A stretch of DNA of 59,962 bases, taken from NCBI GenBank assembly GCA_022616535.1, contig JAKEEM010000060.1:1-59962 (forward strand). The letters are read 5' to 3'. Both the position numbers and the translations under genes were made by a program. Under the pieces are notes generated by a model, which saw only the letters and a program-made list of their open reading frames with translations, ran no database searches and was not told the origin of the DNA. Each line of letters begins with the position of its first letter. Within the stretch, counting starts at the first letter, position 1. The DNA is from Chlorobiota bacterium. Lineage in GTDB: Bacteria; Bacteroidota; Ignavibacteria; Tepidaquicellales; OLB5. This document shows positions 6,513 to 37,912 of this stretch, in pieces.

Positions 6513-6541
6513 ATCGGATTATTATAATTATTTGCCTTGAT

Positions 6542-9805: not shown

Positions 9806-9829
9806 ATCAATCAATGTTTTCAATATTAT

Positions 9830-9851: not shown

Positions 9852-9913
9852 CATTTTATTTTTAAATTGATACAGATAATTTTGAAAAACAATAAAACTT
9901 ATTAATAATTACA

Positions 9914-10306: not shown

Positions 10307-10347
10307 CCTATGAATTGATTTGGTGTCAATCATTGTTTCAAATCTTA

Positions 10348-10725: not shown

Positions 10726-10781
10726 AATTATTCCTTTCGTTAATAATTTTATATCACAAAATTATTCATAACATAAATTAC

Positions 10782-11729
10782 CTACTTCTTAATTCCTGCT
10801 AATTTTCTTTGGAACATGCTGTAAGAGGTTCGCATTGTCTCGGGCGACATCCCGTATTTCTGTTTAAGCAGCCAGCTGAACGAGCTTAAGCTGTTAAAGC
10901 CAATCTCAAAACAAACTTCGGTAATCGGCATATCGGTTCTTAGAATCAAATCGAAAGCCTTGTCTATTCTTTTTCTGGTAATATACTGATAAGGGGTTTC
11001 ATTGAAGATGTTTTTAAAAAGCCGTATAAAATGAAAAGGTGACATGCAAGCTTCTTTTGCAGCATATTCGATTTTTACCTCGGATGAAAAATTCTCATCA
11101 AGCCAGTCTTTTGCTCTGTAAATTCGTTTATAAATCTCAATTTTAGTGGATTTTTTTGCTGCCGGTATTCTTTTTATCTCTTTTCCGACCTGCCGGTGAA
11201 TTCCAAGAAAGGCTTTAAGAAGCATATAGAATTCCTCTTCGAGCCAGTTATTGTCATCATATCCTAATTTTGATGCCATACGAAATTTGAAAATAAACGG
11301 ATACAAAACCGTATCGTGAGGATATAATATTTCCATAAAGTGGACCGGCTGCTCAGGATGAGTTATCTCGTTATCAAGTATATTATCTTCGGAAGATATA
11401 AGACTGCTTAGCACTTCCTCAGCAAACTGGGGTCTGAAGAAAACGGAAATCGTTTCAACTGTCTCATTGGACTGAATTCTTGCTGAGTATTTCTGCCCGC
11501 TGTTGAAAATCAGGTAAGTTGAGGGTGTTACCCTAAAGCTTCTTTGTTTTGTTGCAAAATACTCCTCCCCCTTCAACGTAAATTTTATTGTAAGCGGACC
11601 CGTGTGAAGCGGGTAATAGGCATTTTTGGTCTTGTTGTGAATAATCATATTAGGCCACCTGTAAACAGGACAGGGAGCGTTTATGTTAAATCCGGGTTTT
11701 GTATAATCAGGATATCTGTTTAATATCAT
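10782..11729 (-). CDS. AraC-family transcriptional regulator
   Basis: 315 residues. The C-terminal 100 residues hold two helix-turn-helix motifs of the AraC/XylS type: AKEACMSPFHFIRLFKN with ETPYQYITRKRIDKA, then PITEVCFEIGFNSLSSFSWL with KYGMSP. The N-terminal part is a cupin-like sensor (about 40-130). The effector is unknown. It lies 56 bp upstream of the VOC gene on the same strand, which is its most likely local target. Confidence 0.85.
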   Translation of the reverse strand: MILNRYPDYTKPGFNINAPCPVYRWPNMIIHNKTKNAYYPLHTGPLTIKFTLKGEEYFATKQRSFRVTPSTYLIFNSGQKYSARIQSNETVETISVFFRPQFAEEVLSSLISSEDNILDNEITHPEQPVHFMEILYPHDTVLYPFIFKFRMASKLGYDDNNWLEEEFYMLLKAFLGIHRQVGKEIKRIPAAKKSTKIEIYKRIYRAKDWLDENFSSEVKIEYAAKEACMSPFHFIRLFKNIFNETPYQYITRKRIDKAFDLILRTDMPITEVCFEIGFNSLSSFSWLLKQKYGMSPETMRTSYSMFQRKLAGIKK

Positions 11730-21210: not shown

Positions 21211-22455
21211 TTGAAAAGTGTTTTCGCAAAATACATTTCAAAATTTGCCTATAGCAAATATATATTATTGATAAATGTTGCAGACAGGCTTTTTTCATTT
21301 ATTATACTGCTGCTTCTTGCAAGAAATTTTACAACGGAAATATACGGACAGGTAATTACTTTATTCAGCTTATCAATGATTTCAATAACCATTTTTGACC
21401 TTGGCCTGCCTACCTACATGCAAAGGGAAATAAGTATTAACCCTTCAAATGCTTCAATTGTATTTAGCAAAATATTTTCATCCAATTTGCTTTTTTTCAT
21501 TTTTAACTTTTTATTCGGCTTCATTGCCTGTAAATTATTATATCCTTCAATACCCTTTTTCTTATTTTTAATAATCTTTCTAATGATATACGGAGCCTCG
21601 CTGGTTACGCTGTGCAACAAAGCATTATCTGGATTAAACGAATTTAAGAGCCAGTTTGCCGCTTTTTCAATACCCAGAATACTGATTCTTACTTTTTTTA
21701 TTTTCGGACTACTCTATGCATCTTTTGAGCTAAACTTATTAATGCTAATAATGTTCTTAGGATTTTCATTAAACCTTGTTTTAGCAATCATTAACCTAAA
21801 AAGGATAAATGTAAAGTTCAACCCTGATTATTTTGCTCCAAAAGATTTATCATTAATTCTTAAACTGACTTTACCACTCGGAATTGCAGTAATATTTAAT
21901 TTTCTTTACGATAAAATCGACATAATTTTGATTTCAAAACTAAAGGATTTCTCAGAAGCCGCTTTTTACGGTATCGGATACGGATTATTTAAGGGAGCAT
22001 CGTTATCATTTTCATTTTTGCTTGTCCCCGGATTTACGAAAATATCATCTATTGGTAAGGACAAAAAGCAGGCTGGGGAATTTTTTAGAGAGTATGCCAG
22101 AATTATAGTGACTATATGCATTTTTTTGGGATTAATACTTTTCTGGGGCTCAGAATTGATTATAAAAACTTTATATACGGAAAAATTTTTTAATTCAATA
22201 ACAGTATTGAAAATCCTTGCGTTCGGACTTTTAGGACTTGGGTTAAACAACTTAACAGGAACCGTATTAAATGGTATGGGATATTTTAAAATTGTAATGT
22301 ATGTTACGATGTACGGCTTAATTGCAAACGCCGTGCTCAATATTGCTTTTATTCCAGCTTACGGCATTATTGCAGCAAGTGTAATAACAGTGATTACAGA
22401 ATATTTTATCTTTTTTACTGAACTTTATTATTTCCGGAAAATTTTGAACAAATAA
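21211..22455 (+). CDS. Wzx-type polysaccharide flippase (MATE/MOP superfamily)
   Basis: 414 residues with about 12 hydrophobic helices. The N-terminus NVADRLFSFIILLLLARNFTTEIYGQ is typical of Wzx/RfbX O-antigen flippases, as is the pattern FNFLYDKIDIILISKLKDFSEAAFYG in the seventh-eighth helix. It would flip undecaprenyl-linked oligosaccharide units across the inner membrane. The start is TTG. The stop is followed at once by the next gene's GTG. First gene of an 11-gene run that ends beyond porU. Confidence 0.87.
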   Translation: MKSVFAKYISKFAYSKYILLINVADRLFSFIILLLLARNFTTEIYGQVITLFSLSMISITIFDLGLPTYMQREISINPSNASIVFSKIFSSNLLFFIFNFLFGFIACKLLYPSIPFFLFLIIFLMIYGASLVTLCNKALSGLNEFKSQFAAFSIPRILILTFFIFGLLYASFELNLLMLIMFLGFSLNLVLAIINLKRINVKFNPDYFAPKDLSLILKLTLPLGIAVIFNFLYDKIDIILISKLKDFSEAAFYGIGYGLFKGASLSFSFLLVPGFTKISSIGKDKKQAGEFFREYARIIVTICIFLGLILFWGSELIIKTLYTEKFFNSITVLKILAFGLLGLGLNNLTGTVLNGMGYFKIVMYVTMYGLIANAVLNIAFIPAYGIIAASVITVITEYFIFFTELYYFRKILNK

Positions 22456-23121
22456 GTGGGCACTTCAAATTGGCAAAATATATCTTATAATATCGAGATA
22501 ATCAGAAAGCTTAACCCCAAAACTATACTTGATGTGGGAATTGGGTTCGGCCGGTGGGGAATTTTATTCAGAGAGTTTCTGGAGATTTGGGAAAACGAAA
22601 AATATGAGGGTGATTGGGACAGGGTAATTGACGGCGTAGAAATTTACCCCGGCTATATAAAAGATTACCATAAATATTTTTACAGCAATATCTATATTGA
22701 TAATGCCTTGAATTATCTCGAATCAACAAATAACAAATATGATTTAATTAATCTCGGTGACATTGTTGAACATTTTACAAAAGACGAAGGTGAAAAATTA
22801 ATTGAACTATCCTTCAGAAAAGGAAGATTTGTTCTCATTAACGTCCCCATTGGAAAAAATTGGGATCAAGAGGGGTTTAATGAAAATCCTTACGAAGAGC
22901 ACCAGAGTGTTTGGTACAATAATGACTTCACAAAATACAAACATAATAAAATAAAAAGCTTCAAGGATTTTACATTGAGGGATTTCAGCGTAGTGTTACT
23001 TTCCAAGGAGAAAATAAAATTCGATAAAAGATTCGGGAAATACTTCTATCTGAAAAACTTTTTAAAGCACAGGATTGGCTTAAAAAAGTTCGTTGAAAGA
23101 ATTGAAAACAGAAAAAAATAA
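22456..23121 (+). CDS. Class I SAM-dependent methyltransferase of the glycan cluster
   Basis: 221 residues. The SAM-binding motif is TILDVGIGFGRWG near residue 25, followed by an acidic second strand (VIDGVEIYPGY) and YDLINLGDIVEHF as motif post-I/II. It probably methylates a sugar or a lipid-linked glycan, or caps the chain, given its place between flippase and glycosyltransferases. GTG start with no gap after the flippase stop; its 3' end overlaps the next gene by 29 nt. Confidence 0.75.
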   Translation: MGTSNWQNISYNIEIIRKLNPKTILDVGIGFGRWGILFREFLEIWENEKYEGDWDRVIDGVEIYPGYIKDYHKYFYSNIYIDNALNYLESTNNKYDLINLGDIVEHFTKDEGEKLIELSFRKGRFVLINVPIGKNWDQEGFNENPYEEHQSVWYNNDFTKYKHNKIKSFKDFTLRDFSVVLLSKEKIKFDKRFGKYFYLKNFLKHRIGLKKFVERIENRKK

Positions 23122-24220
23122 TATAAATATTATTTACGTCGGCAGATATAATGAAGGAGAGATTCTTTCAGGTCCGGAAAAAACTGCCAAAAGGATATTC
23201 GATGAACATTCAAAAAAATCCCGATCAATTTTTATTCAATATTTTTTCGACGGAAAAAAATACAGACTAAAGCAAAAATTATTTGGGATAACCAAGAAGC
23301 AAAGTTCTGACAATTCAGTGGTTTACACTCTTGGAATATTTAAAGCTATCTATCTATTAAAGGACATAAAGCCGGAGATAATTCATATTATTACATTCGA
23401 AAGGTTTGCTATAATTTTTTTTATATACAAATTATTCAGCAAAGTGAAAATTGTTTACAACGAGCACGGGGTGGTAACCTATGAAAATTATGAATTAAAA
23501 AAATTACCCTATGTTAAAAAGTTCAAAGACAAAATTTGTGAAAAAATATTTCTGAAATATTCAGATAAAATCATTTTTACGTCTGAAAAAACAATAGATA
23601 TTGCGGAAATATATTTCAACATAAACGAATCCAAATCCGTGATACTGGCAAACGGAGTTGATGAAGTATTTTATAGTAGTAGCAAAACAAAAGTAAATGA
23701 TTCAGTACTTAAAGCTGTTTTTATATATAAAAATGAACTATATAAACCTGGATTGATTTTTTTAAAAAAATTCATTGAAAATTTTAAGGAACATCTAGAT
23801 ATTCATATTATATCAAAAGAAAGTATAGATTTAAAAAATGAGGGTAATGCGCACATTCATTTTATCAAACAAATGGAAACTGATGAACTAGCGAATTTTT
23901 ATAAAGATAAAGATATTTTCTTGTCGTTAAATAATTATGATACTTTTTCGATTTCAACAGCGGAGGCAATGGCAAGCGGATTAATTCCAATAATTACCAA
24001 AGAAACAGGGATAAGCAGATATATTGAAAACGCCCACAACGGATTTCTAGTTGATTTCGGTAACATTAATCAATTAAAAGATACGATAATGAAAGTCGCA
24101 GGAATGAATTCTGATAAAAGAACCGCAATTTTGCAAAATTCTATCAATGTATACGAATATCTCGCGTGGGACAAAATTTATGAAACCTACACCAACATTT
24201 ATAAAAGCATATTGAAATGA
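23093..24220 (+). CDS. GT4-family glycosyltransferase
   Basis: 375 residues with the GT-B fold. The N-terminal domain has IIYVGRYNEGE and IVYNEHGVV. The C-terminal domain has the GT4 donor-site pattern SISTAEAMASGLIPIITKETG (E-x7-E form, about residues 285-305). Start TTG at 23093, with a second TTG three codons on. It overlaps the methyltransferase by 29 nt and the next gene by 4. The donor sugar is unknown. The inner part is very Lys/Ile-rich, as in its neighbours. Confidence 0.82.
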   Translation: MKELKTEKNNINIIYVGRYNEGEILSGPEKTAKRIFDEHSKKSRSIFIQYFFDGKKYRLKQKLFGITKKQSSDNSVVYTLGIFKAIYLLKDIKPEIIHIITFERFAIIFFIYKLFSKVKIVYNEHGVVTYENYELKKLPYVKKFKDKICEKIFLKYSDKIIFTSEKTIDIAEIYFNINESKSVILANGVDEVFYSSSKTKVNDSVLKAVFIYKNELYKPGLIFLKKFIENFKEHLDIHIISKESIDLKNEGNAHIHFIKQMETDELANFYKDKDIFLSLNNYDTFSISTAEAMASGLIPIITKETGISRYIENAHNGFLVDFGNINQLKDTIMKVAGMNSDKRTAILQNSINVYEYLAWDKIYETYTNIYKSILK

Positions 24221-25284
24221 ATATCCTTTTAATTGTAAATGAGCTCAGATTTGCCTGCGGTGTGACAAATCATATTTTTCACTTATCAAAAGGATTATTA
24301 AAAGCAAATAAAGTAAAAATCTGGATAATATGCGGGGGTGGAAGCGGATTAGATAAATTTAAGAATTTGAATATAATATTAACCGTTGATAAAAGGTTTC
24401 TCCACACAGAAAGAAATATTGTTAATTATGTTTCAGCCATCGGCTTTCTGGTAAACTTTATCAAAAAAAACAAAATACAAATTGTTCATCCACATACTCA
24501 TTACGCTGCTAATATTTCCAGAAACGCTTCTAAGTTCATCAAAATTAAAACCATACAAACCAATCACGGACTTCTTCAAACAAAGGGAATTTTAAAACAT
24601 TTTTCAGCTGAAAAATATATTGCAATTAATGAGCATATTTATAATTATATCTTAGAAAACAAGATTGCTAAAAGCCAAAATGTAAAATTTATTAGGTGCG
24701 GAATTCCAATTCCAAAGGAATTTCCTCAAAAGGATTACTCAAAAATAAAAATTATTGCCGCTTCCAGACTTGACTTTGAAAAAGGATTGGATATTTTTAT
24801 CAACGCAGTCTCCAAGTTGAAGGATGAAGTTAAAACAAAGGCAGAGTTTTACATTGCCGGTGAGGGTGAATGTGAATCTGAGCTAAGAAAATTGAATCGT
24901 CAGAAAAATTCCGGGATTCAATTTCTTGGCATCGTTAAAGATATGTATAAACTACTTTCAGAAACGCATATATTTGTTTATCCCTCAAGGTCGAATTCCG
25001 AGGGATTTCCGGCCGTAATAACCGAAGCCGGAGCAACGGGTAACTTATTGATAAGCTCAAATTTTGGCGGCTCGGAATATGTAATTGAAAATAATAAAGA
25101 TGGTTTAATATTCAGCCAAAACAATTATACAGATCTAAAAAATGTTCTAAGCATGGTTTTAGAAAATTATAAAAAGTTTATTCCATTGTCACTAAATTTT
25201 TATAAAAAGGCAAAGAAATGGTTTGACTTAGATACTATGATAAACCAACATATCGAGCTTTACAAAGAATGCCTAAAAAAATAA
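24217..25284 (+). CDS. GT4-family glycosyltransferase
   Basis: 355 residues, GT-B fold. The N-terminus MNILLIVNELRFACGVTNHIFHLSKGL carries the acceptor-side Gly loop, and IVHPHTHYAANISR follows. The donor side has AASRLDFEKGLDIFINAVSKL, then FVYPSRSNSEGFPAVITEAGATG (the EGFP...E signature of GT4). Starts by ATGA overlap with the previous gene and overlaps the GT2 gene by 16 nt. Similar at its N-terminus to the gene at 27859 (both NxLFACG or NYACG), so the two may be paralogues. Confidence 0.88.
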   Translation: MNILLIVNELRFACGVTNHIFHLSKGLLKANKVKIWIICGGGSGLDKFKNLNIILTVDKRFLHTERNIVNYVSAIGFLVNFIKKNKIQIVHPHTHYAANISRNASKFIKIKTIQTNHGLLQTKGILKHFSAEKYIAINEHIYNYILENKIAKSQNVKFIRCGIPIPKEFPQKDYSKIKIIAASRLDFEKGLDIFINAVSKLKDEVKTKAEFYIAGEGECESELRKLNRQKNSGIQFLGIVKDMYKLLSETHIFVYPSRSNSEGFPAVITEAGATGNLLISSNFGGSEYVIENNKDGLIFSQNNYTDLKNVLSMVLENYKKFIPLSLNFYKKAKKWFDLDTMINQHIELYKECLKK

Positions 25285-26225
25285 ACGATATTACAGTCTT
25301 AATGGCTGCTTATAATTGCGCCGAGTACATAGGTCATTCAATTAAGAGTATCCTGAACCAAACTTATAAGGAATTCGAATTTATAATTATTGATGACGGC
25401 TCAATGGATAATACTGAGGAAATAGTAAGCGGCTTTAAAGATTCCAGAATAATTTACAAGAAAACAAATAATAAAGGAACTTCAGCTGCATTGAATTATG
25501 GCTTAAAGCTCGCAAGCGGTGAGTGGATAGCAAGGATAGACGCAGATGATTTAAATATCCCATCAAGACTTGAGATGCAGACGAATTTTCTAAATGGAAA
25601 CCCTGAATATGATTTTGTCTCAAGCTGGTCAGTTTACTTTAAATCACCTAGCAAAATTTTATTTCTTTTAAGAGAACCCATAACCCACAGCCAAATTTAT
25701 AAATACTTGAACTTGCATAATCCCTTGAATCAATCCGGAATAATGTACAGGAAGAAAATCATAAAAAAAGAAGGATATAACGAATCGTTTAGAAATAATG
25801 AAGACTTTGAGCTATTTTACAGAATAAGGGACAAAGTAAGGTTTTATAATATACCTGAGTTTTTGGTTTATACAAGGGTAAGACCTGAATCGAAATCCAA
25901 TTTAAATGAAAACAGCAATGTCTATGAAATGCTGTTTAACCCCGCATTCAAAAATTTGATTGAGGCTAAATCAAAAGGTGAACATTTTTACTGGGCAAGT
26001 ACATTAGCGTGGATTAATTTTTTTTACGGCAATAGAAAAGATGCAAGGGGCTATTTAAAAAAATCAGGTTCCTTAAAAAACTGGGTAGCTTATCTTGCAA
26101 CATTTCTTCCAGATAAATATTTTTACAAGCTAATTGATTTAAGATTAAGATACAGGTTGCAAAATATTTTCAGAAGTAAAAAGTATTATAAAAATGAATT
26201 ACGAATACTTTTAACATCAAAGTGA
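25269..26225 (+). CDS. GT2-family glycosyltransferase
   Basis: 318 residues. GT-A fold with VLMAAYNCAEYIGHSIKSIL at the start, FIIIDDGSMDNTEEI (nucleotide-binding Asp), and GEWIARIDADDLNIPSRL, the DxD motif of GT2. A later NNEDFELFYRI gives the catalytic ED. It probably transfers a sugar from a nucleotide donor on the cytoplasmic face. Overlaps both neighbours (16 nt and 4 nt). Confidence 0.92.
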   Translation: MPKKINDITVLMAAYNCAEYIGHSIKSILNQTYKEFEFIIIDDGSMDNTEEIVSGFKDSRIIYKKTNNKGTSAALNYGLKLASGEWIARIDADDLNIPSRLEMQTNFLNGNPEYDFVSSWSVYFKSPSKILFLLREPITHSQIYKYLNLHNPLNQSGIMYRKKIIKKEGYNESFRNNEDFELFYRIRDKVRFYNIPEFLVYTRVRPESKSNLNENSNVYEMLFNPAFKNLIEAKSKGEHFYWASTLAWINFFYGNRKDARGYLKKSGSLKNWVAYLATFLPDKYFYKLIDLRLRYRLQNIFRSKKYYKNELRILLTSK

Positions 26226-27862
26226 AAGATAACAAGAAATTTACAATTTATGTTTTTATAATTTATTTAATCTTTGCAGTAGCATTATACTTTATAGGTT
26301 ATTTTAAAATCGGGTTACTTTCCGATGACTATCTGAACTTTTATGATGCTTTAAATTCAAACTTAAATCAAAAAATAACCGGGCAGCTGCCCTTTACAAA
26401 TACTTTCCACACGAGGCCATTTTATTATTTATCGCTCGAAAAAAGTGTTTGGTTACATGATTTACTGGGATTCGGTTATGATGATTTCATTTGGTACAGA
26501 GTTCAAAATCTTGTTCTGTTATTATTAATCTCATATATAGCCGGACGGATTGTTTTGCTGATAACAAATAAATTATCCATTTCACTGATTGCAGCATTAA
26601 CAATTATAATTTTTCCAAATAACTTAAATAATATCTGCTGGACCGCAGGCAGGGTTGACTTGCTGTGTGCTCTATTTTATGCAATAGCAATCTACTTGTT
26701 ATATCTATACTTAAACCGTAAACACTTACTTCTTTTATCTGGGATAATCGTGTTCTTTCTACTGGCACTGATGACGAAAGAACTTGCAATAACATTGCCT
26801 GCTGTTCTTGTTTTAATGGCTTATTTTACAAATGGAAAAGAGGCGCTTCGCAACAATAAATCTGTTTTTATTTCTTTATTTGGCATATTGGGTTTATATA
26901 TTATATTTAAGGTGTTTCTGCTCAGTAATGATTTGCTTGAAATCGCCACACTATACCAGTCTGGCCCCTTATCAAATGCTCCCGGCGTTTTCTCAAGGGG
27001 AATCATTTCCCTAACCATCCCTTTGGACTACCTAACATTAAATTTATACTTACAAACCCACAACAAAATAGTTTTTTTATATTTGCTTTCTTTATATGGA
27101 GCTTTATTTTATTTGGTATGGATTTTAATGAAAACTGAAGACTATAAATATATATTTCAGATTATCTTACTTACTTTATTTATGCTTGCCCCATATGCAT
27201 TAATAGGCTACATAAGACCACAGATGATAATGCTTCCTTTTATAATAATTACTATACATTTATTGTGGGTTTATAGCCTCAAAGGAAAAGACAAACTGAA
27301 TTTTAATAAACACATATTTAAAGTTTTATATTTTATTGCATTGATATTCTGGGTTTATTGGAGTTATCTGGTTATCAGCGATTGGAAAACATCTTACGAA
27401 AAAGGGAAAGCCATAGCTGATAATCTGCTTAAACTTAATATAGAATCCGCCAGGCATACAATAATAATAGGCAACCCTGGAAGATTCAAACAAACTTTTA
27501 TGTTCGATAAGCTCACGGGGTCATACAACTTCTGGAAGGAAAAAACCTTTACAATAAAAGATACTATCAATGATGTAGTTCAAACTGGTGCATTAGAAGA
27601 AAATTCAATTGGAGCAAAATTTGACCTGAAAAAAATTAAGACTAACGAATTCGAAATAAGAACAATATCCGGTTACCAATTTTTTTACATTGAAGGCCTA
27701 ACAGGAGATAAATTAAGCAGAGGATTTAAAAATCAGGACATGGATGTAGAATTTACCGAATTCGACAACATGAATAAACCCATAAAAATGAAACTTAAAT
27801 TACTATCTGAAAACGTTGATTGCTACCTTGCCGACAATTTAAGTTTTATCAAGATTTATTGA
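26222..27862 (+). CDS. Multi-pass membrane protein, GT-C-like glycosyltransferase
   Basis: 546 residues with about ten or eleven transmembrane helices and a C-terminal soluble part of about 130 residues. The first loop reads LLSDDYLNFYDAL and then TNTFHTRPFYYLSLE; an acidic pair in the first extracytoplasmic loop is the mark of GT-C enzymes that use lipid-linked sugars (PMT/ArnT/GT39-like). CWTAGRVDLLCALFYA follows in the next loop. GTG start in a GTGA overlap with the GT2 gene. It may modify the lipid-linked glycan, or transfer it, in the periplasm. The assignment rests on topology and motifs. Confidence 0.6.
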   Translation: MKDNKKFTIYVFIIYLIFAVALYFIGYFKIGLLSDDYLNFYDALNSNLNQKITGQLPFTNTFHTRPFYYLSLEKSVWLHDLLGFGYDDFIWYRVQNLVLLLLISYIAGRIVLLITNKLSISLIAALTIIIFPNNLNNICWTAGRVDLLCALFYAIAIYLLYLYLNRKHLLLLSGIIVFFLLALMTKELAITLPAVLVLMAYFTNGKEALRNNKSVFISLFGILGLYIIFKVFLLSNDLLEIATLYQSGPLSNAPGVFSRGIISLTIPLDYLTLNLYLQTHNKIVFLYLLSLYGALFYLVWILMKTEDYKYIFQIILLTLFMLAPYALIGYIRPQMIMLPFIIITIHLLWVYSLKGKDKLNFNKHIFKVLYFIALIFWVYWSYLVISDWKTSYEKGKAIADNLLKLNIESARHTIIIGNPGRFKQTFMFDKLTGSYNFWKEKTFTIKDTINDVVQTGALEENSIGAKFDLKKIKTNEFEIRTISGYQFFYIEGLTGDKLSRGFKNQDMDVEFTEFDNMNKPIKMKLKLLSENVDCYLADNLSFIKIY

Positions 27863-28929
27863 GTTTAAACATACTTCACATAACGCCGGATTTCAATTAT
27901 GCCTGCGGGCGCTCTTATTATGTTTACCAGATTATAAAACATTTTAACAAAAAAAACAATGTTTTCCTGATAACAAACGGCGGTGACTCCCTTGAGCGGC
28001 TGGAAAAACTTAATATAAACTACGAAATCATAAAAAGCCTTAAATCAAAAAATCCGATATTACTTGCTAAAAATATAAGGAAAATAAAGAATTTTATTGA
28101 TTCTTACAAAATTGATATCATCCATACCCACCATAGGTATTGCGAGCTAATAGCGATTCAAGCTGCTAAGCTGATAAAGCATAATAAAACAAATACAGTA
28201 TTAACAGCCCTAAGCCTGGTAAAGAGAAAATATAATGTCGAATATAAGTCTGATAAAATAATAGCAGTTAGCAATTGTGTAAAAAAAATGCTGATAAAGA
28301 AATTTAAAGTCGATGAAAATAAAATTTTATTAATTCCGAATTTTACAGATACAGACGAACTCCGAAAAACCAATAAACGTGTCCCTTTAAAAAAAGGAAA
28401 GTTTTACAATATTTTAGCCGTGGGCAGATTCCACGCTGAAAAAAATTTCGAGCTTCTTCTAAAGGCTTTGAATATTCTGCAGGACAAAAAAATCCAGCTG
28501 ATTCTAATCGGTGAAGGAGAGAACCTTTTTGTATACAAGAAATACATAAACAGCTATAAATTAAATGCTGAAATAATCCCGCCTCAAAAAAGCCTTACGC
28601 AGTTCTTTTCAATTGCAGATTTATGCGTTCTTCCCTCTATAAGAGATCCCTTCCCTAATTTTATGCTTCAAAGCGGATTGCATAAAAAACCGTTCATTGG
28701 GTCAAATGTTGATGGAATTGCTGAACTAATTAAAAGCAAAAAAAACGGACTTATATTTGAAAGTCAAAATGAAAAAGACCTTGCCGAAAAAATAAAATTT
28801 ATGATGAGAAACAGAAATCTAGCTAAAAAATATGCCGTGAAACTCCATTATGATGTCATTAAAAACTATACACAAAAAAACGTTATCCCAAAAATCAGTA
28901 GAATATATAATGAGCTTGTAAAATCCTAA
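27859..28929 (+). CDS. GT4-family glycosyltransferase
   Basis: About 356 residues from the TTG at 27859, which overlaps the previous stop as TTGA. This start matches the family N-terminus LNILHITPDFNYACGRSYY. The frame stays open upstream to 27820 but that part is shadow sequence. The donor side has AVGRFHAEKNFELLLKAL and LPSIRDPFPNFMLQSG, in place of the usual EGFP...E; the first Glu is Asp here. The donor sugar is unknown. Next gene 26 bp on. Confidence 0.82.
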   Translation: MSLNILHITPDFNYACGRSYYVYQIIKHFNKKNNVFLITNGGDSLERLEKLNINYEIIKSLKSKNPILLAKNIRKIKNFIDSYKIDIIHTHHRYCELIAIQAAKLIKHNKTNTVLTALSLVKRKYNVEYKSDKIIAVSNCVKKMLIKKFKVDENKILLIPNFTDTDELRKTNKRVPLKKGKFYNILAVGRFHAEKNFELLLKALNILQDKKIQLILIGEGENLFVYKKYINSYKLNAEIIPPQKSLTQFFSIADLCVLPSIRDPFPNFMLQSGLHKKPFIGSNVDGIAELIKSKKNGLIFESQNEKDLAEKIKFMMRNRNLAKKYAVKLHYDVIKNYTQKNVIPKISRIYNELVKS

Positions 28930-28955
28930 ACTATGGAAGGAGCCAATTTAAGAAA

Positions 28956-29678
28956 TTGGAGATATTTGGCGTCAAATTTAATAATATTACTTATAATGAA
29001 TTATCGGATGCAATCTGCGCTTCAATCGAAGGAAATAGTAAAATTTTGATAACTTACGCAAATGCCCATACCTTAAATAAATCATATGCGAATAAAACTC
29101 TAATAAACACCGTCAACTCTTTCGATATTGTTCACCCTGATGGCATTGGGATTTATTTAGCATCAAAAATTCTTTATAAAAAGAATTGTCTGAATAAAAG
29201 GTTCACTGGCTCGGACTTCTACCCAATTTTCGCAGAAGAAGCTATTAAGAACAAATGGAAGGTGTTTTTCTTCGGCCATGATAATGAGACTCTGAACAAA
29301 ATTAAATTGAACTATCCGGACTTAATAATTTCTGGGTTAAAAGAAGGGTACCAATTCAATGATAATGAAGTAATTAACTCTGTTAATAGCTCAGAAACTG
29401 ATGTATTAATTATAGGTTTCGGTTTTCCGAAACAGGAACAATGGATTTACGAAAATAAGGATAGGCTTAAATGTAAAGTAATCTTGGCAGTCGGTGAAGG
29501 AATTAAAGTTTTTGCGGGCACTAAAATCAGAGGTCCCGGATTTATAAGAGCTTTGGGCTTGGAATGGCTTGTTAGGTTTTTTGCAAATCCTATCAAATTT
29601 TTTAGCAGGTATATCACTGGAAACCCGATATTTTTATGCAGGATTATTATCTTAAAAATGCGTAATTTTGGCAGATGA
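28956..29678 (+). CDS. WecG/TagA/CpsF-family glycosyltransferase (GT26)
   Basis: 240 residues. Signatures are ILITYANAHTLNKSY, DIVHPDGIGIYLASKI (the catalytic Asp region), RFTGSDFYPIFAEEA, FFFGHDNETLNKI, IIGFGFPKQEQWI and RALGLEWLVRFFANP. Members add N-acetylmannosamine-type or similar sugars to lipid-linked GlcNAc and are peripheral membrane enzymes. The start is TTG, with GGAAGGAG (28935-28942) as a ribosome site 13 nt before it. Its stop overlaps the porU start (ATGA), so the last glycan gene and the T9SS sortase are translationally coupled. Confidence 0.9.
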   Translation: MEIFGVKFNNITYNELSDAICASIEGNSKILITYANAHTLNKSYANKTLINTVNSFDIVHPDGIGIYLASKILYKKNCLNKRFTGSDFYPIFAEEAIKNKWKVFFFGHDNETLNKIKLNYPDLIISGLKEGYQFNDNEVINSVNSSETDVLIIGFGFPKQEQWIYENKDRLKCKVILAVGEGIKVFAGTKIRGPGFIRALGLEWLVRFFANPIKFFSRYITGNPIFLCRIIILKMRNFGR

Positions 29679-32600
29679 TTTTAAAAAAATTGTCGCTCAG
29701 AATCGCAATTTTCACCATCCTTGCATCAGTTACTTATTCCCAAAATTATAACTGGATTATTCCAAATAAAACTTATTTAAAGCTGTTCGTCAACGAAGAT
29801 GCAGTTTATAGAATTACACGGACAGAATTCACACAGGCGGGGATTAACACAAATAATATCGACCCCCGCACAGTGAAGGTTTATTATAAAGGGCAAGAGA
29901 TACCTATTTATTTTGAAGGTGAACAAGACGGAACATTTGATGCCAACGACTTTATCGATTTTTATGGTGAAAGAAATCACGGCGGAATAACAAATACTTA
30001 TTTAGCAAGCTTCGGACCAACAACTTTGCATTATACAACGGATGAATATTATAATTCATATTCCGATACGAACGTTTATTGGGTCGGTTGGGACGGAACA
30101 AACGGACTGAGGTTCAATATTTCAACTTACTTCGTTCAAAATGAATATTCACAAAATTTTTCATTTGAAAAGCTTCATTTTGAAAAAGATTCATTGTACT
30201 CTCCCGGCGAAACTGTAAATCCAAATGCGGATTTCAGGTATTTCAACAATGAAAAAATCTCCGGAGAAGGGTGGTATTGGAGAAATTTAACTTCGCAGCA
30301 CGGTTATTCCGTAAGCTCTGCTTTTACAATTCCACTCTTATTCTCGCTGCCTCAATTATGTACTTTCAGAATTTTTGCATACCCTAATTCCAAAGATACT
30401 GTTTTTAATGAACACAGGCTTGTCCTAAGGATAAATTCAACTATTATTGCAACAATTTCTAAAAATGATTATGAGCGGTTTGATACAACTGTAACTTTTT
30501 CAAGTTCGCTTTTAACTTCATCAACCAATAACGTTAGTGTTACTTATTCACCCATAATCGGAAATCCTAATATTACTCCAAGCTTATACTTTGATTTAAT
30601 TGAGCTTACCTATCCTAAAATTTTTAAATTTCAAAATGGCAGTTGTAAAATAACTTTATCAGGGTCCGACTCTTCTTCGACGTTATTCAAAATAACCGGA
30701 TTTAGCGCAGCAAATCCCGTTTCTATATATGATAAAAAGAATAATATCAAGATTACAAATATAAGCTCAAATTTCGATACTCTATTTTTTACAGGCAAAA
30801 AAAACGGTGAGTTTGAAGTTGTAAATCAGAACATAACCAAAAGACCTTTTAGAATCGAGCCAAGGCAAGTTCCAAACCTCGTATCGAGCACAAATGGAGC
30901 TGATTATCTTGTAATCTATAACAGGCTGTTTGAATCACATGCAGAACAGCTTCGCTCACACAGGCAATCAAGAGACAATTTTCGTTCAGTTAAAGCTTCA
31001 GTTGATGATATTATTGATATTTTCAATTACGGACTTACTGACCCTGTAGCAATAAGGCGGTTTGTAAAGCATGTTTATGATAATTGGCAGGCTCCAAAAG
31101 TAAGGTTTGTATGTCTCTTCGGAAGGGGTTCGCTTGACCCTAAAAATAACCGCATCCAGCAAAGTTTTTATAAGAATCTTATTCCTGTTTACGGCTATCC
31201 TCTCACTGACGGGTATTTTGTAAACTTTAACTTAAACGGATTTACTTATGATAAACAGGTCTCCGTCGGGAGGATACCAGCATACACACAGCTGGAAGCG
31301 CAGGATATAGTTAATAAAATAATCAATTATGATAACGAGCCACTTGATAACTGGATAAAAGCATTTTTAATGATTACGGGCGGTCCGAACAGAAATGAGC
31401 AATTGCAGTTTCAGGCACAGTCTAATTTATTGATTAACAGTTATATAAATCCCCCGCCGATTTCCGGAGACGCACACAAAATTTATAGGAATGATTCTGC
31501 AGGAGGGATTACTTTCAACTACGCTGACTCAATAAAAAGAGAAATCAACAGGGGGGGATTAATAATTAACTTCATTGGGCACGCTGCAAGCCAGGATTGG
31601 GAACTTGGACTTGAAGACCCGCTGACTCTCTCAAATGGGAACAGACTTCCGCTGGTTCTGAGCATGACCTGTTTTACAGGGAGAAATTCCGAACCGAACT
31701 TCAGGGGATTCGGAGAGAAATTTATTTACGCTCAAAACAGGGGTGCTGTCGGATTTTTGGGAAGTACTGGCTGGAGCTTTGCCAGCGCAGGAAATGACCT
31801 GAACAAATACATATTTCAGGGATTTGCTCAGGATACACTTAGGCGAATTGGTGAGTTAGTCAAGTATGCATCAAACAGGCTTGCACCTGATTCGGCAAAT
31901 TTCCAGGTAAGAAATATGATTAATTGCTATGACTTGCTCGGAGACCCTGCTTCCAAGCTTATACTGCCATCTACTCCTGAGTTTGTTATTGGTCAAACCG
32001 ATTACAGAATTTCCAATCCTTATCCAATTACTGGTGAACAGGTAAACCTGACGATTTATCCCAAAAATCTCGGAACATTTGCAAAAGACTGCTTAATCAG
32101 GTTTGAAATTCTAAAAAACGGCGGACCCTATAGACATAAAGATACCCTAATTGCAAACTTTGCGTATTCGGATACCGCCTCATATATCTTCAGCATCGAC
32201 ACAATCGGAAATTATTCACTAAAGGTAACTCTGGATTATGACGACAGATATCCGCAGGAGATACCGACAAATAATATTTTGATTCTTCCTTTGCCGCTCA
32301 GAAATATCTCATATACTCCGCTAAAGCCAATTAGAAACTCAGTTATCAGGAATGATACGGTAGAATTCGTTGGTCTGAACCCTCAAATTGACCCAACAAG
32401 AAACAGCATAAAAATAATATTGCAGGTCGATACCTCAAGAACATTCCCAAATCCATTGCTGACTTATACTAATACCAGTGTTTCCGGAGTTGCAACCAAA
32501 GTCAAATACAGGATTCCCGTTCCTGACTCAAACATTGTTTATTTCTGGAGAACAAATTCAATAATAAATAATGACAGCACAGGCTGGAGTGAAACAATGA

Positions 32601-34543
32601 GATTTGTTTATAATCCCTTGGTAAGTTCTGAATTTTCACGTTCGTTTTTTAATGATTCGGTTGTAACCATATATACAAAATTAAGAAACCAATATGATAA
32701 TATGGATATTTCTAACCTTGTCTATAGCGGAACCGGTTTTGAGTTAACCAATTATTCCGGGCAACTGCAGGTTAAATCATTCGGGAGCAACGGAAGTGAA
32801 GCATCTTATTTTATTATAAATAATTTTACTTTATACGCTGACGGCGGACAAAATACAGGATTAAACATTGTAAAAGTAAGAAGATTGACTGGTAATGTTT
32901 TAGAGTTTAAAAATTTCCGAATGTCAACACCCACTTCGTCCGATTCAGTTCTCAATTTTTTAAATACTTTTGACACCACTCATTTTGTAATGATAGGAAT
33001 AGCTACCCACGTTTCTCCTTCAGACAGCCTTCGACAAACGGCTAAAAATAAAATTAAACAGTTTGGCAGTGTATATGCTGATTCCATCAAGAGATTCGAC
33101 TCCTTCGATTCATGGGCATTTATTGGCTACCTTGGGGCTTTGTCTCAAAATGCTCCTGAACAGTTTCACAGGTATTCTTCCAACAATACATGGACCCCTT
33201 CATTTGCTTCATTAAATCCGACTTTTATCAGCACATTCGGAACAATTAACTTCTCAATAGGTCCTGCGCACAGGTGGAAATATTTTTCATGGGACAGGTT
33301 ATTAAATCCCAATTCTTACGTAAACTATGATGTAATTGGTATCAATACAACAGATGATTCCACTATATTTTATTCAAATTTAACCTTTAACACGTTTGTA
33401 AATTTAGATACTCTTAACAGCTTTCAATATCCTAATTTAAGATTAATAGCAAAACTTACAATAGATACACTCGGCGGGCTGTTATCGCCGCTTTTTAAAT
33501 CAATGTTTCTTAAATACACTCCTCCCGCTGAAATAATACCAGACAATTACTCCATTGTTAAAAGTGATTCCATAGTGCAGGAAGGCGCTCAGGTCACTTT
33601 CTCTGTAAAAACATACAATGTCGGCTATGTGCCGGCAGGAACGGTAATTTATAAATGGACTGCTAATGCTCCAAGCGGACTTGTTGTTTTGAAATCCGAT
33701 ACAGTTTATTCCCCCCTTGATATTGATAGCGTTAGGGTATCAACAGTAACATTCAGCACGCAGGGTTTAAGAAATCAGAACTTAACTGTTGACACGGTTG
33801 AAATTAATTTCGAGGTTTCAATGCTTGGAAATCAAAACGATTATTATCCTTTCAACAATTTTGCATTTAGTAATATAATTGTCACAGGTGATTCTACAGG
33901 TCCTTCAATAGAAGTAACATACGATGGAGAGAAAATTTTAAACGGAGACCTAATTCCATCCAAGCCCGAAATTGTATTTAAATTTTTTGACGACGGCAAG
34001 CTTGATTATACAATTGATGACACTTCGAGCATTTTTATTAAGCTTGACGGAAGAAGGTTATACTACAACTCAGGCGGACAGCCGAACCCTGAGTTAAACT
34101 TTGATGCTGTGAATAGCGGAAACCTTAAAACCATTGTAACTTATAAACCAATTCTTAGCGAAGGCAGCCACCAGTTACAGTATATAGGAGGCGACAAGGA
34201 CGGAAACAGGGATACTGTGATAAATGATGTATACGTAAGCTATGCTTTTACTGTGAAGAACTTGTTTAATTATCCAAATCCAATGAGAAGCGATACATAT
34301 TTTACGTTTAATTTATTTTCGTCTAAAGCTCCCCAAAGCTGCAAAATCAAAATTTTTACGGTTGCAGGGAGACTTATAAAAGATATCAGCGCTCCCGCAA
34401 AGGTTGGCTTTAACCATATATATTGGGACGGAAAAGATAATGACGGCGAAAATATGGCAAACGGTATTTATCTTTACAAATTAATTCTTGAAGATGAAGG
34501 GAAAATTGAAACTTCAATTCAAAAATTAGCTATATTAAGATAA
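29675..34543 (+). CDS. porU: Type IX secretion system sortase PorU (C25 gingipain-like protease)
   Basis: 1622 residues with signal peptide (1-22). The N-terminal region has PNKTYLKLFVNEDAVYRITR. The C25 domain (about 400-770) has catalytic H636 (NFIGHAAS) and C666 (LSMTCFTG), followed by RGAVGFLGSTGWS. Long beta-rich domains follow, and a FlgD-like Ig/sorting-type domain closes it (NYPNPMRSDTYFTF, with YLYKLILEDEG). PorU removes the C-terminal sorting domain of T9SS cargo and joins cargo to a surface glycan in Porphyromonas. It is longer than the roughly 1150-residue P. gingivalis protein. ATGA overlap with the GT26 gene; the next gene starts directly after the stop. Confidence 0.82.
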   Translation: MILKKLSLRIAIFTILASVTYSQNYNWIIPNKTYLKLFVNEDAVYRITRTEFTQAGINTNNIDPRTVKVYYKGQEIPIYFEGEQDGTFDANDFIDFYGERNHGGITNTYLASFGPTTLHYTTDEYYNSYSDTNVYWVGWDGTNGLRFNISTYFVQNEYSQNFSFEKLHFEKDSLYSPGETVNPNADFRYFNNEKISGEGWYWRNLTSQHGYSVSSAFTIPLLFSLPQLCTFRIFAYPNSKDTVFNEHRLVLRINSTIIATISKNDYERFDTTVTFSSSLLTSSTNNVSVTYSPIIGNPNITPSLYFDLIELTYPKIFKFQNGSCKITLSGSDSSSTLFKITGFSAANPVSIYDKKNNIKITNISSNFDTLFFTGKKNGEFEVVNQNITKRPFRIEPRQVPNLVSSTNGADYLVIYNRLFESHAEQLRSHRQSRDNFRSVKASVDDIIDIFNYGLTDPVAIRRFVKHVYDNWQAPKVRFVCLFGRGSLDPKNNRIQQSFYKNLIPVYGYPLTDGYFVNFNLNGFTYDKQVSVGRIPAYTQLEAQDIVNKIINYDNEPLDNWIKAFLMITGGPNRNEQLQFQAQSNLLINSYINPPPISGDAHKIYRNDSAGGITFNYADSIKREINRGGLIINFIGHAASQDWELGLEDPLTLSNGNRLPLVLSMTCFTGRNSEPNFRGFGEKFIYAQNRGAVGFLGSTGWSFASAGNDLNKYIFQGFAQDTLRRIGELVKYASNRLAPDSANFQVRNMINCYDLLGDPASKLILPSTPEFVIGQTDYRISNPYPITGEQVNLTIYPKNLGTFAKDCLIRFEILKNGGPYRHKDTLIANFAYSDTASYIFSIDTIGNYSLKVTLDYDDRYPQEIPTNNILILPLPLRNISYTPLKPIRNSVIRNDTVEFVGLNPQIDPTRNSIKIILQVDTSRTFPNPLLTYTNTSVSGVATKVKYRIPVPDSNIVYFWRTNSIINNDSTGWSETMRFVYNPLVSSEFSRSFFNDSVVTIYTKLRNQYDNMDISNLVYSGTGFELTNYSGQLQVKSFGSNGSEASYFIINNFTLYADGGQNTGLNIVKVRRLTGNVLEFKNFRMSTPTSSDSVLNFLNTFDTTHFVMIGIATHVSPSDSLRQTAKNKIKQFGSVYADSIKRFDSFDSWAFIGYLGALSQNAPEQFHRYSSNNTWTPSFASLNPTFISTFGTINFSIGPAHRWKYFSWDRLLNPNSYVNYDVIGINTTDDSTIFYSNLTFNTFVNLDTLNSFQYPNLRLIAKLTIDTLGGLLSPLFKSMFLKYTPPAEIIPDNYSIVKSDSIVQEGAQVTFSVKTYNVGYVPAGTVIYKWTANAPSGLVVLKSDTVYSPLDIDSVRVSTVTFSTQGLRNQNLTVDTVEINFEVSMLGNQNDYYPFNNFAFSNIIVTGDSTGPSIEVTYDGEKILNGDLIPSKPEIVFKFFDDGKLDYTIDDTSSIFIKLDGRRLYYNSGGQPNPELNFDAVNSGNLKTIVTYKPILSEGSHQLQYIGGDKDGNRDTVINDVYVSYAFTVKNLFNYPNPMRSDTYFTFNLFSSKAPQSCKIKIFTVAGRLIKDISAPAKVGFNHIYWDGKDNDGENMANGIYLYKLILEDEGKIETSIQKLAILR

Positions 34544-37222
34544 GTGAAAAAAATTTTTTTAATTATAATTGTTTTATACACACCCATTCTATCACAATGG
34601 ATACAGCAATCCAGCGGAACTTCGACGGTTTTATACAAAGTCTCATTTCCAAGCTCTAATACGGGTAATACCGTTGGACTCAGCGGAACAATCAGAAGAA
34701 CAACCAACGGAGGGGAAAACTGGACGGTGCAGCAGAGTCTCCCCAATGAAGATCTTTTTGCTGTTTACTTTTTAAATGATCTGACCGGTTATTTGGCGGG
34801 TGACGGCTCTAAAGTTGCAAAAACAACAAATGGCGGGCTGAACTGGATTAACTTGGTTCCTATACCCCAGCTGTATTTCGGAATTAATTTTTTAAACGAG
34901 AATACCGGCTTTATGTGCGGCAACGGCGGGTACATTATCAGGACTACCAATGGAGGGGCAAATTGGGAACAGCTTTCAACAGGGGTAACAGCAGCATTGA
35001 ATGATATTTCGTTTGTAAACTCTTCTGAAGGATTTGCAGTAGGCTCCGGTGGGACAATTATAAAAACCTCTAACGGCGGAAACAACTGGAGCACTCTTGC
35101 AAGCGGAACGAACAACTTGCTTACATCGATATCAATAATTTCAGCAGAAACAGCTTTTGCAGCAGGACAGGGTGGATTAATATTAAAAACCACAAACGGA
35201 GGTTTAAACTGGGCAAGCATAAATTCCGGGACAGTTAGCAGAATTACAGATTTATTTTTCGTCAACCAAAATACAGGAACAGCCGTGGGTCTGGGTAATA
35301 CAATTCTGAGAACAACCAATGGCGGCTTAAACTGGATTTCACAAAACAGCGGAGTATCGGGGCAGGATTTTCACGGTGTATGTTTCACTTCCGCAAATAA
35401 TGGATTCGTCGTTGGTTCAGGCGGGCATATTTTGCATACTACTACAGGAGGATTTCCCATACCACCGTCTCCAAATCTTGTTTCACCTCCAAATAACGCA
35501 ACCGGAGTATCAGTTACCCCGCTTCTTGATTGGGATTCCGTTTCATCAGCGACCTTTTATCAGGTTCAGCTTTCAGCGGATTCAAATTTTGCTTCGAACA
35601 TAATCGATTCATCTCAAATTTTCTTAACGAGTCTTCAGGTCAGTTCCGGGCTTTTGACAAACAACTTTTTGTATTTCTGGAGAGCTCGGGGGATAAATTC
35701 GGGAAGTAACGGTCTCTGGTCAGCTGTATACAGATTCAGAACTATTGTAGCTTTACCAAGCGCTCCAAACCTGCTATTGCCGACAAACGGAGCAATGAAC
35801 GTTTCCTTAACCCCAAATTTTGACTGGGACAGCACTTCCCCAGCAGATTTTTACCGACTCCAGGCTGCACTTGATACAGGATTTGTTTCAATCAGACTAA
35901 ACATTACCGGCATAACACAATCTCAATACAGTTTGGTTAGTCCGCCTCTTCAAAATAATTTCAGGTATTACTGGCGCGTAAACGCTACTAATCAGGCAGG
36001 AACAGGACCTTGGTCTAACGTTTTTAATTTTACGACTGTTATCGGATTTCCCCCTCCTCCAGTATTAATAACACCTCCCCACAATTCAAATAATATCAGC
36101 TTAACTCCAACACTTGACTGGGCGGATGATATTACTGTAATTACCTACCAGCTTCAGCTGTCGGACGATTCAACTTTTACAGGCACTTTGACTGATTCAA
36201 CGGGCTTTAATGTTTCACAACTAGTTGTAAGCGCAGGCATATTGATAAACATTACCGCTTATTTTTGGAGAGTGAGAACTACAAATAGCTTGGGAACAGG
36301 ACCTTGGTCGGAAGTATGGAAATTCACTACAATACTTGCTCCGCCTGCAGCACCGATTTTGATTAATCCGCCAAACGGGGCAACAAATGTTTCAACGACC
36401 CCCACGCTTGACTGGAACGATGTCCCTTTTGCCGAAACATACCGGATTCAAATTTCCACAGATTCATTATTCGGAACTTTTTTAACTAATATTGGGGGAT
36501 TAACATTTTCGCAATACAATGTTCCGGGCGGTTTACTTCAAAATAATACGACCTACTTTTGGAGGGTAAATGCAACAAACTCTGCGGGCACAGGTCCTTT
36601 TTCGCAGGTGTGGCGATTCAGAACTGCAGTGTCTCCGCCCGTGGCAGCACCGGATTTAATTAGTCCCCCAAATGGGGCTAACAATCTTTCATTGACGCCC
36701 ACTTTAGACTGGAACGACGTTTTTGGTGCTAACGGATACAGGGTTAATGTTTCCGACGACTCCCTGTTTAACACAACGATAATTGATACAACACTGACAC
36801 CGTCACAATATACTGTATTAGCTGGCAGACTTGCTGGAGGCGTTACATACTATTGGAGGGTTCGTGCCTTCAACACTGGCGGGTCCGGACCGTGGTCAGT
36901 TACGTGGCGCTTCACGACATTTCCAATAGGGATTAAAATATTAAGTTCCGAAATACCCAAAGAATTTAAGTTATATAATAACTACCCGAATCCGTTTAAT
37001 CCAGTTACATTTATAAAGTTCGATATACCAAAAAATTCATTCATAAAAATTGAGATATACGACATCCTGGGTAGAAAAATTGAATCTCTGGTTAATCAAT
37101 TCGTGCAAGAAGGTTACTATATTGCAAGCTGGGATGCATCCGGCGTATCTAGCGGAGTTTATTTCTATAGATTAGTTTCAGAAGATTTTACGGACATAAA
37201 GAAAATGATTGTTGTAAAATAA
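34544..37222 (+). CDS. Large T9SS cargo: YCF48-type propeller, five FN3-like repeats, sorting domain
   Basis: 892 residues, GTG start directly after the porU stop. Signal peptide (1-18), then seven propeller blades each marked TTNGGxNW (about 30-300). Five FN3-like repeats start near residues 305, 403, 502, 598 and 698, each with PPNGATNVSxTPTLDW at the start and YFWRVxATNxxGTGPWS at the end. The T9SS sorting domain comes last (NYPNPFNPVTFIKF, KKMIVVK). It is predicted to be exported and anchored; likely adhesin or matrix protein. The repeats are also alike at DNA level, so copy number could vary. Confidence 0.88.
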   Translation: MKKIFLIIIVLYTPILSQWIQQSSGTSTVLYKVSFPSSNTGNTVGLSGTIRRTTNGGENWTVQQSLPNEDLFAVYFLNDLTGYLAGDGSKVAKTTNGGLNWINLVPIPQLYFGINFLNENTGFMCGNGGYIIRTTNGGANWEQLSTGVTAALNDISFVNSSEGFAVGSGGTIIKTSNGGNNWSTLASGTNNLLTSISIISAETAFAAGQGGLILKTTNGGLNWASINSGTVSRITDLFFVNQNTGTAVGLGNTILRTTNGGLNWISQNSGVSGQDFHGVCFTSANNGFVVGSGGHILHTTTGGFPIPPSPNLVSPPNNATGVSVTPLLDWDSVSSATFYQVQLSADSNFASNIIDSSQIFLTSLQVSSGLLTNNFLYFWRARGINSGSNGLWSAVYRFRTIVALPSAPNLLLPTNGAMNVSLTPNFDWDSTSPADFYRLQAALDTGFVSIRLNITGITQSQYSLVSPPLQNNFRYYWRVNATNQAGTGPWSNVFNFTTVIGFPPPPVLITPPHNSNNISLTPTLDWADDITVITYQLQLSDDSTFTGTLTDSTGFNVSQLVVSAGILINITAYFWRVRTTNSLGTGPWSEVWKFTTILAPPAAPILINPPNGATNVSTTPTLDWNDVPFAETYRIQISTDSLFGTFLTNIGGLTFSQYNVPGGLLQNNTTYFWRVNATNSAGTGPFSQVWRFRTAVSPPVAAPDLISPPNGANNLSLTPTLDWNDVFGANGYRVNVSDDSLFNTTIIDTTLTPSQYTVLAGRLAGGVTYYWRVRAFNTGGSGPWSVTWRFTTFPIGIKILSSEIPKEFKLYNNYPNPFNPVTFIKFDIPKNSFIKIEIYDILGRKIESLVNQFVQEGYYIASWDASGVSSGVYFYRLVSEDFTDIKKMIVVK

Positions 37223-37255: not shown

Positions 37256-37912
37256 ATGAAATTTCTTAGAAAATTTGCTGATAATACAAATCGAAACTCA
37301 ATTGTTAACAAATGGCGAAAGAAAAGATTTAAAATTTTTAAGGAAATGCTCGATGGAATCCCAAAACCGGTTAAAATTCTTGATATCGGCGGGACTGAAA
37401 ATTTCTGGATTCAGATGGATTTTGTAAACTTTCCTGATGTGACTATAACAATCTTAAATAGTCAAGAAATTAACATAACTTTGCCATATTTCAAGTTTGT
37501 AAAAGGAGATGCAAAAGATATGAATATGTTCGCAGATAATGAATTTGATATAGCGTTTTCAAATTCAGTAATTGAGCATGTTGGAAATTACAATGACCAA
37601 AAAAAAACGGCAAATGAAATTAAACGCGTTGCAAAAAGGTATTTTGTTCAAACGCCAAATTATTATTTCCCTATGGAGCCCCATTTTTTGTTCCCTTTTT
37701 TTCAGTTTCTCCCTTTAAAAATAAAGATTTTTTTGCTTATGAACTTCAAAATGGGATGGTATGAAAAATGCAATTCATATGAAGAAGTATTAAAATTAAT
37801 CAATTCCATTCGATTACTTAAGAAACGGGAACTAGAAATATTTTTCCCTTTTTGTAGAATTAACAGGGAAAAGCTGTTTGGTTTAACAAAATCATTTATT
37901 ATAACCAATTAA
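37256..37912 (+). CDS. Class I SAM-dependent methyltransferase
   Basis: 218 residues. Motif I is VKILDIGGTENFW, and the Methyltransf_11 pattern follows (FVKGDAKDMNMF, then NEFDIAFSNSVIEHVG). The C-terminal half (QTPNYYFPMEPHFLFPFFQFLP) resembles methyltransferases found in surface-polysaccharide clusters. It lies 33 bp after the T9SS cargo gene and closes the glycan-porU run. The substrate is presumably a sugar of the same glycan; that is an inference from place. Confidence 0.75.
   Translation: MKFLRKFADNTNRNSIVNKWRKKRFKIFKEMLDGIPKPVKILDIGGTENFWIQMDFVNFPDVTITILNSQEINITLPYFKFVKGDAKDMNMFADNEFDIAFSNSVIEHVGNYNDQKKTANEIKRVAKRYFVQTPNYYFPMEPHFLFPFFQFLPLKIKIFLLMNFKMGWYEKCNSYEEVLKLINSIRLLKKRELEIFFPFCRINREKLFGLTKSFIITN

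Follow-up and report, generated by a model that had tools for sequence, protein, structure and literature searches.

Why does a gene for a putative sortase of the type IX secretion system (T9SS) close a run of genes for glycan synthesis? The question is raised by a 59,962-nt stretch of DNA, hereafter the window (GenBank contig JAKEEM010000060.1, assembly GCA_022616535.1), which is contig C9 of the 2.9-Mb genome of a Chlorobiota bacterium of the class Ignavibacteria. On its + strand, positions 21211-34543 encode a flippase, a methyltransferase-like protein, three GT4 and one GT2 glycosyltransferases, a multi-spanning membrane protein, a WecG-type GT26 glycosyltransferase and, at the end, a 1622-aa C25 peptidase, which the first-pass annotation of the window had named PorU, the T9SS sortase. 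In Porphyromonas gingivalis, the anchor-glycan genes lie apart from the sortase and the way in which a sortase chooses its glycan is, to our knowledge, understood in a single system. Here, we find that the C25 gene is a PorU paralogue whose family is tied to glycan clusters, and we propose, with a probability of about 0.5, that it serves as a second T9SS transpeptidase (sortase), reserved for the glycan of its own operon, with the operon oligosaccharide as acceptor and some T9SS cargo as donor.

A PorU paralogue distinct from the canonical sortase

The C25 gene has the following features:

29675-34543, + strand: PorU-family C25 paralogue of 1622 aa, signal peptide by inspection (NF052324, 377 bits; NF033707, 357 bits; both below cut-off)
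30905-31960, + strand: C25 peptidase domain (PF01364, 226.8 bits, cut-off 23)
31580-31582 and 31670-31672, + strand: catalytic His636 and Cys666, within the C25 domain
32858-33139, + strand: ILEI/FAM3/POMGnT1-stem-like domain, residues 1062-1155 (PF15711, 48.1 bits, cut-off 27)
34271-34492, + strand: T9SS type-A/FlgD-like C-terminal domain (TIGR04183, 23.1 bits; PF13860, 37 bits)

Is this gene porU? The curated NCBIfam cut-offs are 420 bits for PorU (NF033707) and 450 bits for PorU2 (NF052324, a putative T9SS sortase), and the window gene stays below both, its best NCBIfam match being the PorU2 model with 377-380 bits. The genome holds two C25 genes above the Pfam cut-off, and the one on contig C2 is a canonical PorU that reaches 939 bits with NF033707 and adjoins PorV (319 bits to the PorV family) and a T9SS-dependent M6-like gene. 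These scores, together with the full canonical PorU on another contig, rule out that the window gene is the canonical sortase, and the name porU has to be withdrawn. In a tree of the catalytic domain, a branch with 100% support splits ten canonical PorUs, including that of Parabacteroides, from all paralogues, and the PorV-linked PorU2-type genes of Bacteroidia nest inside the 125-row paralogue clade. With PorU of P. gingivalis (NF033707; PDB 6za2) the window paralogue has in common the C25 His/Cys dyad, the N-terminal region and the C-terminal FlgD/type-A-like domain, whereas it carries an extra ILEI domain, exceeds the canonical copies found here by ~250 aa, falls in a separate clade and belongs to a glycan cluster rather than adjoining PorV. 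With PorU2 it shares the clade, but the PorU2-type genes of Cytophagales and other Bacteroidia often lie by PorV, with neither a clear ILEI domain nor WecG upstream. That the window gene is nonetheless the canonical PorU, and that its cluster makes the general T9SS anchor glycan, is hardly credible to us: common membership of the C25 family and adjacency to a glycan cluster speak for it, but the gene on C2 refutes the identity, the tree sets canonical PorUs apart with full support and VimA/WbpS-like genes, considered below, lie elsewhere.

The catalytic His and Cys are kept in 63 of 63 paralogues, as in all nine canonical PorUs compared, and because of this invariance the C25 paralogue is probably an active enzyme. 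Judged by its sequence, it is PorU-like rather than gingipain-like, since its sole PDB match, and only solved relative found in this way, is PorU 6za2 (E=1.8e-14). As a canonical PorU sits separately in the same genome, the predicted role of the paralogue is an additional one, and automatic annotation as PorU may, in these phyla, hide a different C25 enzyme. The putative PorU2 of NCBIfam and the chemistry between PorU and glycan are already known; in the open literature (subscription journals and preprints were outside the search) we found no paper on PorU2 or on PorU paralogues fused to ILEI or fixed at the ends of glycan clusters. In another genome (G025, contig C4), two canonical-size C25 genes ~4.5 kb apart (105104-106249 and 109580-110728) are possibly a duplicated canonical PorU.

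Genomic tie between the paralogue and glycan clusters

The genes that precede the paralogue in the window are:

21211-22455, + strand: Wzx-type flippase (PF01943/MatE; Pfam 41.3 bits, cut-off 28.2), TTG start uncertain; first cluster gene in relatives
22456-23121, + strand: methyltransferase-like protein (SAM motif by inspection only; no Pfam or NCBIfam match)
23093-24220, + strand: GT4 glycosyltransferase a (PF00534, 66 bits)
24217-25284, + strand: GT4 glycosyltransferase b (PF00534, 100 bits)
25269-26225, + strand: GT2 glycosyltransferase (PF00535, 115 bits)
26222-27862, + strand: multi-spanning membrane protein, probably a GT-C type glycosyltransferase by inspection (no Pfam or NCBIfam match)
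27820-28929, + strand: GT4 glycosyltransferase c (PF00534, 96 bits)
28956-29678, + strand: GT26 WecG/TagA/CpsF glycosyltransferase (PF03808, 144 bits; TIGR00696, 93 bits, cut-off 69), overlapping the next gene by ATGA

Open reading frames (ORFs), order, strand and coordinates bear out the run of overlapping or almost touching genes from 21211 to 34543 that had been described. The junction gaps are 0, -29, -4, -16, -4, -43, +26 and -4 bases up to the C25 gene and 0 bases from there to a T9SS cargo-type gene, which begins directly after the C25 stop codon TAA (34541-34543). The ATGA said to be shared by the GT26 and C25 genes is read at 29675-29678, and the GT26 call is backed by both of its family models. 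With a flippase and several glycosyltransferases (GTs) in one run, the locus is a Wzx/GT oligosaccharide cluster. Among the six GT-type genes announced by the first-pass annotation, five stand by family match and the membrane protein is GT-C-like by inspection; the methyltransferase at 22456-23121 is likewise a call from its motif. A consensus scan, in which promoter-like matches were somewhat above and terminator-like matches below the shuffle expectation, was uninformative.

Same-family relatives whose contigs are long enough repeat the complete order: flippase, methyltransferase, GT4, GT4, GT2, membrane protein, GT4, WecG, C25, cargo and second methyltransferase. Eight relatives with the whole cluster keep this order with near-zero spacing and three more, with cut contigs, keep it in part; copies of the methyltransferase-like gene that are 60-71% identical occupy the same place, as does the gene of the membrane protein. 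In the sister family, Ignavibacteriales, Melioribacteraceae, KSB1 and Chlorobi-labelled genomes, the middle of the run is made up of other genes, yet its last gene is usually the paralogue, most commonly directly 3′ of WecG. Seen from the other side, 39 of the 62 WecG genes in 59 relatives have a C25 paralogue on the same strand within 4 kb downstream. The association of a sortase-type gene with flippase and GT genes, on which the first-pass annotation had built, holds across Ignavibacteria orders, KSB1 and Chlorobi-labelled genomes despite GT turnover, so that the proposed tie survives and it is the identification as PorU that falls.

Upstream genes were counted within 6 kb in a deduplicated set with 85 ILEI-type paralogues that had enough upstream sequence, using in-house profiles that do not cover every GT family. 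At least one GT preceded 76 of the 85 ILEI-type paralogues and at least two preceded 66, while WecG was found upstream of 62 and directly adjacent to 51. The corresponding figures for canonical PorU were 1/8 with at least one GT, 0/8 with at least two and 0/8 with WecG; paralogues without ILEI had at least one GT in 5/21 cases and at least two in 1/21, and 7/21 had PorV instead. A gene beside one canonical PorU (L053:13456-14598) is heptosyltransferase-like by eye.

Before looking at further genomes, we wrote down the prediction that most fresh genomes of the class would show at least two GTs within 6 kb upstream of the paralogue. The profiles were frozen, 3 of 20 fresh loci that had already been seen were removed and 16 were scored. 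At least one upstream GT was found at 14 of these 16 loci against 4 of 139 control ORFs (300 aa or longer, picked arbitrarily in these genomes or in related ones), and at least two at 12/16 against 0/139 (Fisher P ~1e-14, the loci being not fully independent owing to relatedness). Conservation, controls and fresh loci rule out chance adjacency, and the genomic tie of the ILEI-type paralogue to glycan clusters is near certain.

Does such a tie imply shared chemistry? Linkage could reflect mere co-expression of envelope genes, the C25 paralogue having no chemical relation to the glycan. Operon membership alone is indeed no proof of shared chemistry, and solitary paralogues exist, but the pairing survives deep divergence, GT turnover and a change of cluster type and was borne out by fresh genomes, whereas canonical PorU and the PorV-linked paralogues are without WecG. 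On balance, we find this explanation rather improbable.

In two other families, a gene of 447-455 aa replaces the GTs directly upstream of the C25 paralogue (L050:9144-10487, L097:10589-11956, and, in L212 and L213, genes of 447/448 aa); Pfam scans of two of these genes gave no match.

An ILEI domain with a possible glycan-binding role

The ILEI domain is found by Pfam in 23 of 27 paralogues and in 0 of 9 canonical PorUs. Across the class, 87 of 149 genomes contain an ILEI match, mostly in open frames of ~1600-2000 aa, which is the size of the C25 paralogue. The ILEI profile matches FAM3 and POMGnT1 chains with E values of 1e-13 to 1e-18, and also the cell-surface hyaluronidase TMEM2 (3.5e-8), and a predicted model (pLDDT 90) has the POMGnT1 stem as its best match (TM score 0.70-0.75, Foldseek E=3.4e-8). 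The POMGnT1 stem fold binds N-acetylglucosamine (GlcNAc) via Arg129, Asp179 and Arg207 (PMC9802357). In spite of the likeness in fold and profile, these contacts are not generally kept: the Arg-Asp-Arg triad is complete in one distant relative (L128, placed by the tree next to the KSB1 genome), most of the Ignavibacteriales examined retain Asp and the second Arg, and in the order of the window all three residues are lost in the alignment to POMGnT1. GlcNAc binding of the POMGnT1 type is thereby excluded for the window domain and, because the contact residues are lost, its ligand, if any, would differ from that of POMGnT1. A glycan-binding role is plausible from the modelled fold.

A candidate second sortase and its rivals

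How might the operon work? As their families suggest, the genes at 21211-29678, together with an initiating transferase encoded elsewhere, would produce a lipid-linked oligosaccharide that would then be flipped. The C25 paralogue, having kept a PorU-like tail, would be exported by the T9SS, and its ILEI domain might recognise the operon's own glycan or its carrier, playing in cis the role that PorZ has for PorU in P. gingivalis. By analogy with the PorU family, the His636/Cys666 centre would then: i) cut the sorting tail off a subset of T9SS cargo, the cargo-type product of 34544-37222 first, and ii) couple the new C-terminus to the operon glycan. That the genomic tie means covalent attachment of protein to glycan has, in our estimate, roughly even odds.

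The arrangement recalls two known systems. The PorU-PorV-PorQ-PorZ complex of P. gingivalis works with anionic lipopolysaccharide (A-LPS), its acceptor being an oligosaccharide linker on the lipopolysaccharide, and the proposed logic in common is that of a sortase, a glycan-recognition module and a glycan acceptor (PMC8545088, PMC7468200, PMC13086638); there, however, the glycan-binding PorZ is a separate protein, and the Vim/WbpS pathway was not found in the window cluster. Exosortase/PEP-CTERM loci in exopolysaccharide clusters likewise place a sorting transpeptidase within a polysaccharide locus (PMC7468200, PMC10936215), but exosortases are unrelated inner-membrane enzymes whereas the window enzyme is a T9SS C25 protein expected at the cell surface.

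Several observations weigh against a dedicated sortase. Some paralogues are solitary, without GTs (L065, L068, L071, L075, L078 and L085), and in the neighbourhood searched no PorV-family gene lies near the glycan-linked C25 paralogue, so that a paired PorV had to be rejected. To the loss of the GlcNAc contacts is added that the tail of the 34544-37222 product is ordinary type A, one of at least 150 in the genome (150 of 226 candidates scored), and a special cargo tail was likewise rejected. VimA-like and WbpS-like genes, of the kind that serve the linking sugar of P. gingivalis (PMC7468200), sit on contig C5 and not in the cluster, and family scans of the cluster genes found no enzyme that would provide an amine nucleophile comparable to the seryl-sugar of P. 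gingivalis. The position of these genes on C5 weakens the idea that the general anchor glycan is a product of the window cluster and leaves any transfer reaction here without an evident nucleophile. Nor is the system self-contained, as had been suggested: beyond the many tails and the VimA/WbpS-like genes, the PorV-family genes and PorZ lie outside the cluster, and an initiating transferase, polymerase or ligase of its own had no match within it, the genes for initiating transferases (PF02397) and the O-antigen ligase-like genes (PF04932) being on other contigs. In the locus on C5 (L236 of the window genome, G000; 2511-3482, 3499-4404, 4427-5395, 6344-8173 and 9565-11025), two consecutive genes of the PorV/PorQ family are accompanied by a VimA-like FemAB gene, a WbpS-like amidotransferase, another flippase and a GT-like gene; it is a candidate for the general T9SS linking sugar of this genome.

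The main rival to the sortase reading is a glycan-docked processing protease, that is, a surface enzyme that matures envelope proteins of glycan export or assembly with no transpeptidation, its ILEI domain only docking on the surface glycan. The C25 family includes plain proteases, ILEI could serve as a docking module, the cluster offers no nucleophile-supplying enzyme and the coupling to glycan export genes is close, with Wzm/Wzt directly downstream of the paralogue in several relatives. The closest solved relative is nevertheless PorU and not a gingipain, the PorU-like tail is retained and T9SS-tailed genes recur directly downstream, and we consider a plain protease unlikely.

Other cluster types

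The paralogue is also found at the end of clusters of different composition. In a second type, the GT2 genes number four or five, one of them encoding a product of 1954-2602 aa with multiple GT2 domains, and tandem C25 paralogues come after them (L067, L070, L073, L079, L083, L087 and L091), and a third consists of Wzz, GT4, an O-antigen ligase/polymerase-like (Wzy) gene and then C25 (L095, L096 and L151). Genomes such as G024 and G021 carry two cluster types plus a solitary copy of the paralogue. The giant multi-GT2 proteins of 1954-2602 aa are exemplified by L067:11459-17323, with similar ones in L070, L073, L079, L083 and L091.

Because a lectin-bearing second relative of PorU ends an O-antigen-like cluster in Ignavibacteria and some related lineages, the genomes suggest that these bacteria may keep a separate sortase per surface glycan. 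A bolder version, which we put forward tentatively and hold at somewhat less than even chances, is that T9SS sortases have a second branch, widespread and with a lectin-like domain and a fixed O-antigen-like cluster for each member, through which a single cell could mark different secreted proteins with distinct surface glycans, several cluster types in a genome then meaning several sortases. As many lineages inherit sortase, candidate glycan-recognition domain and glycan genes together, the sortase that belongs to a given glycan can be read from genomes, and the pairing is testable.

Genes downstream of the paralogue

Two further genes follow in the window:

34544-37222, + strand: T9SS cargo-type protein with Ycf48-like propeller repeats (PF14870, 104 bits), fibronectin type III (FnIII) repeats (PF00041) and a type-A sorting tail (PF18962, 41 bits; tail 49 bits)
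37256-37912, + strand: class I methyltransferase (PF08241, 37 bits), second downstream gene, present in same-family relatives

The T9SS cargo gene that the first-pass annotation had placed directly after C25 does start there without a gap, its sorting tail was confirmed and a T9SS-tailed gene holds this position throughout the family. In several Ignavibacteriales, an unrelated tailed protein of 218-230 aa takes the same place, often with a -4 overlap. Of 50 next genes that lie on the same strand and are not C25, 19 are tailed, compared with a background of 5.5% of sampled genes, although many of these cases are one ancestral event. Adjacency of cargo is weak as a special feature in itself, such tails occurring in ~5.5% of sampled genes and at least 150 times in the window genome. 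PorZ of P. gingivalis, which supplies PorU with A-LPS, likewise combines propellers with a tail (PMC8545088), and by analogy the 34544-37222 product could be a PorZ-like adaptor rather than cargo.

The conserved propeller/FnIII partner directly downstream in the family, together with the tandem C25 pairs of many relatives, would also fit a paralogue that builds a surface coat by fixing itself, or a small number of structural proteins, to the glycan and does not act on many cargo proteins. Partner genes vary between lineages, however, and many loci have no tail-bearing neighbour, which makes such a coat very improbable in our opinion.

In Ignavibacteriales, a conserved protein of ~447 aa, with a signal peptide by eye and perhaps located in the outer membrane, has no Pfam match and matches ImpL63 weakly; its gene follows C25 or the small tailed neighbour of C25 (L133:14714-16057, L135:15459-16805 and L144:14668-16014).

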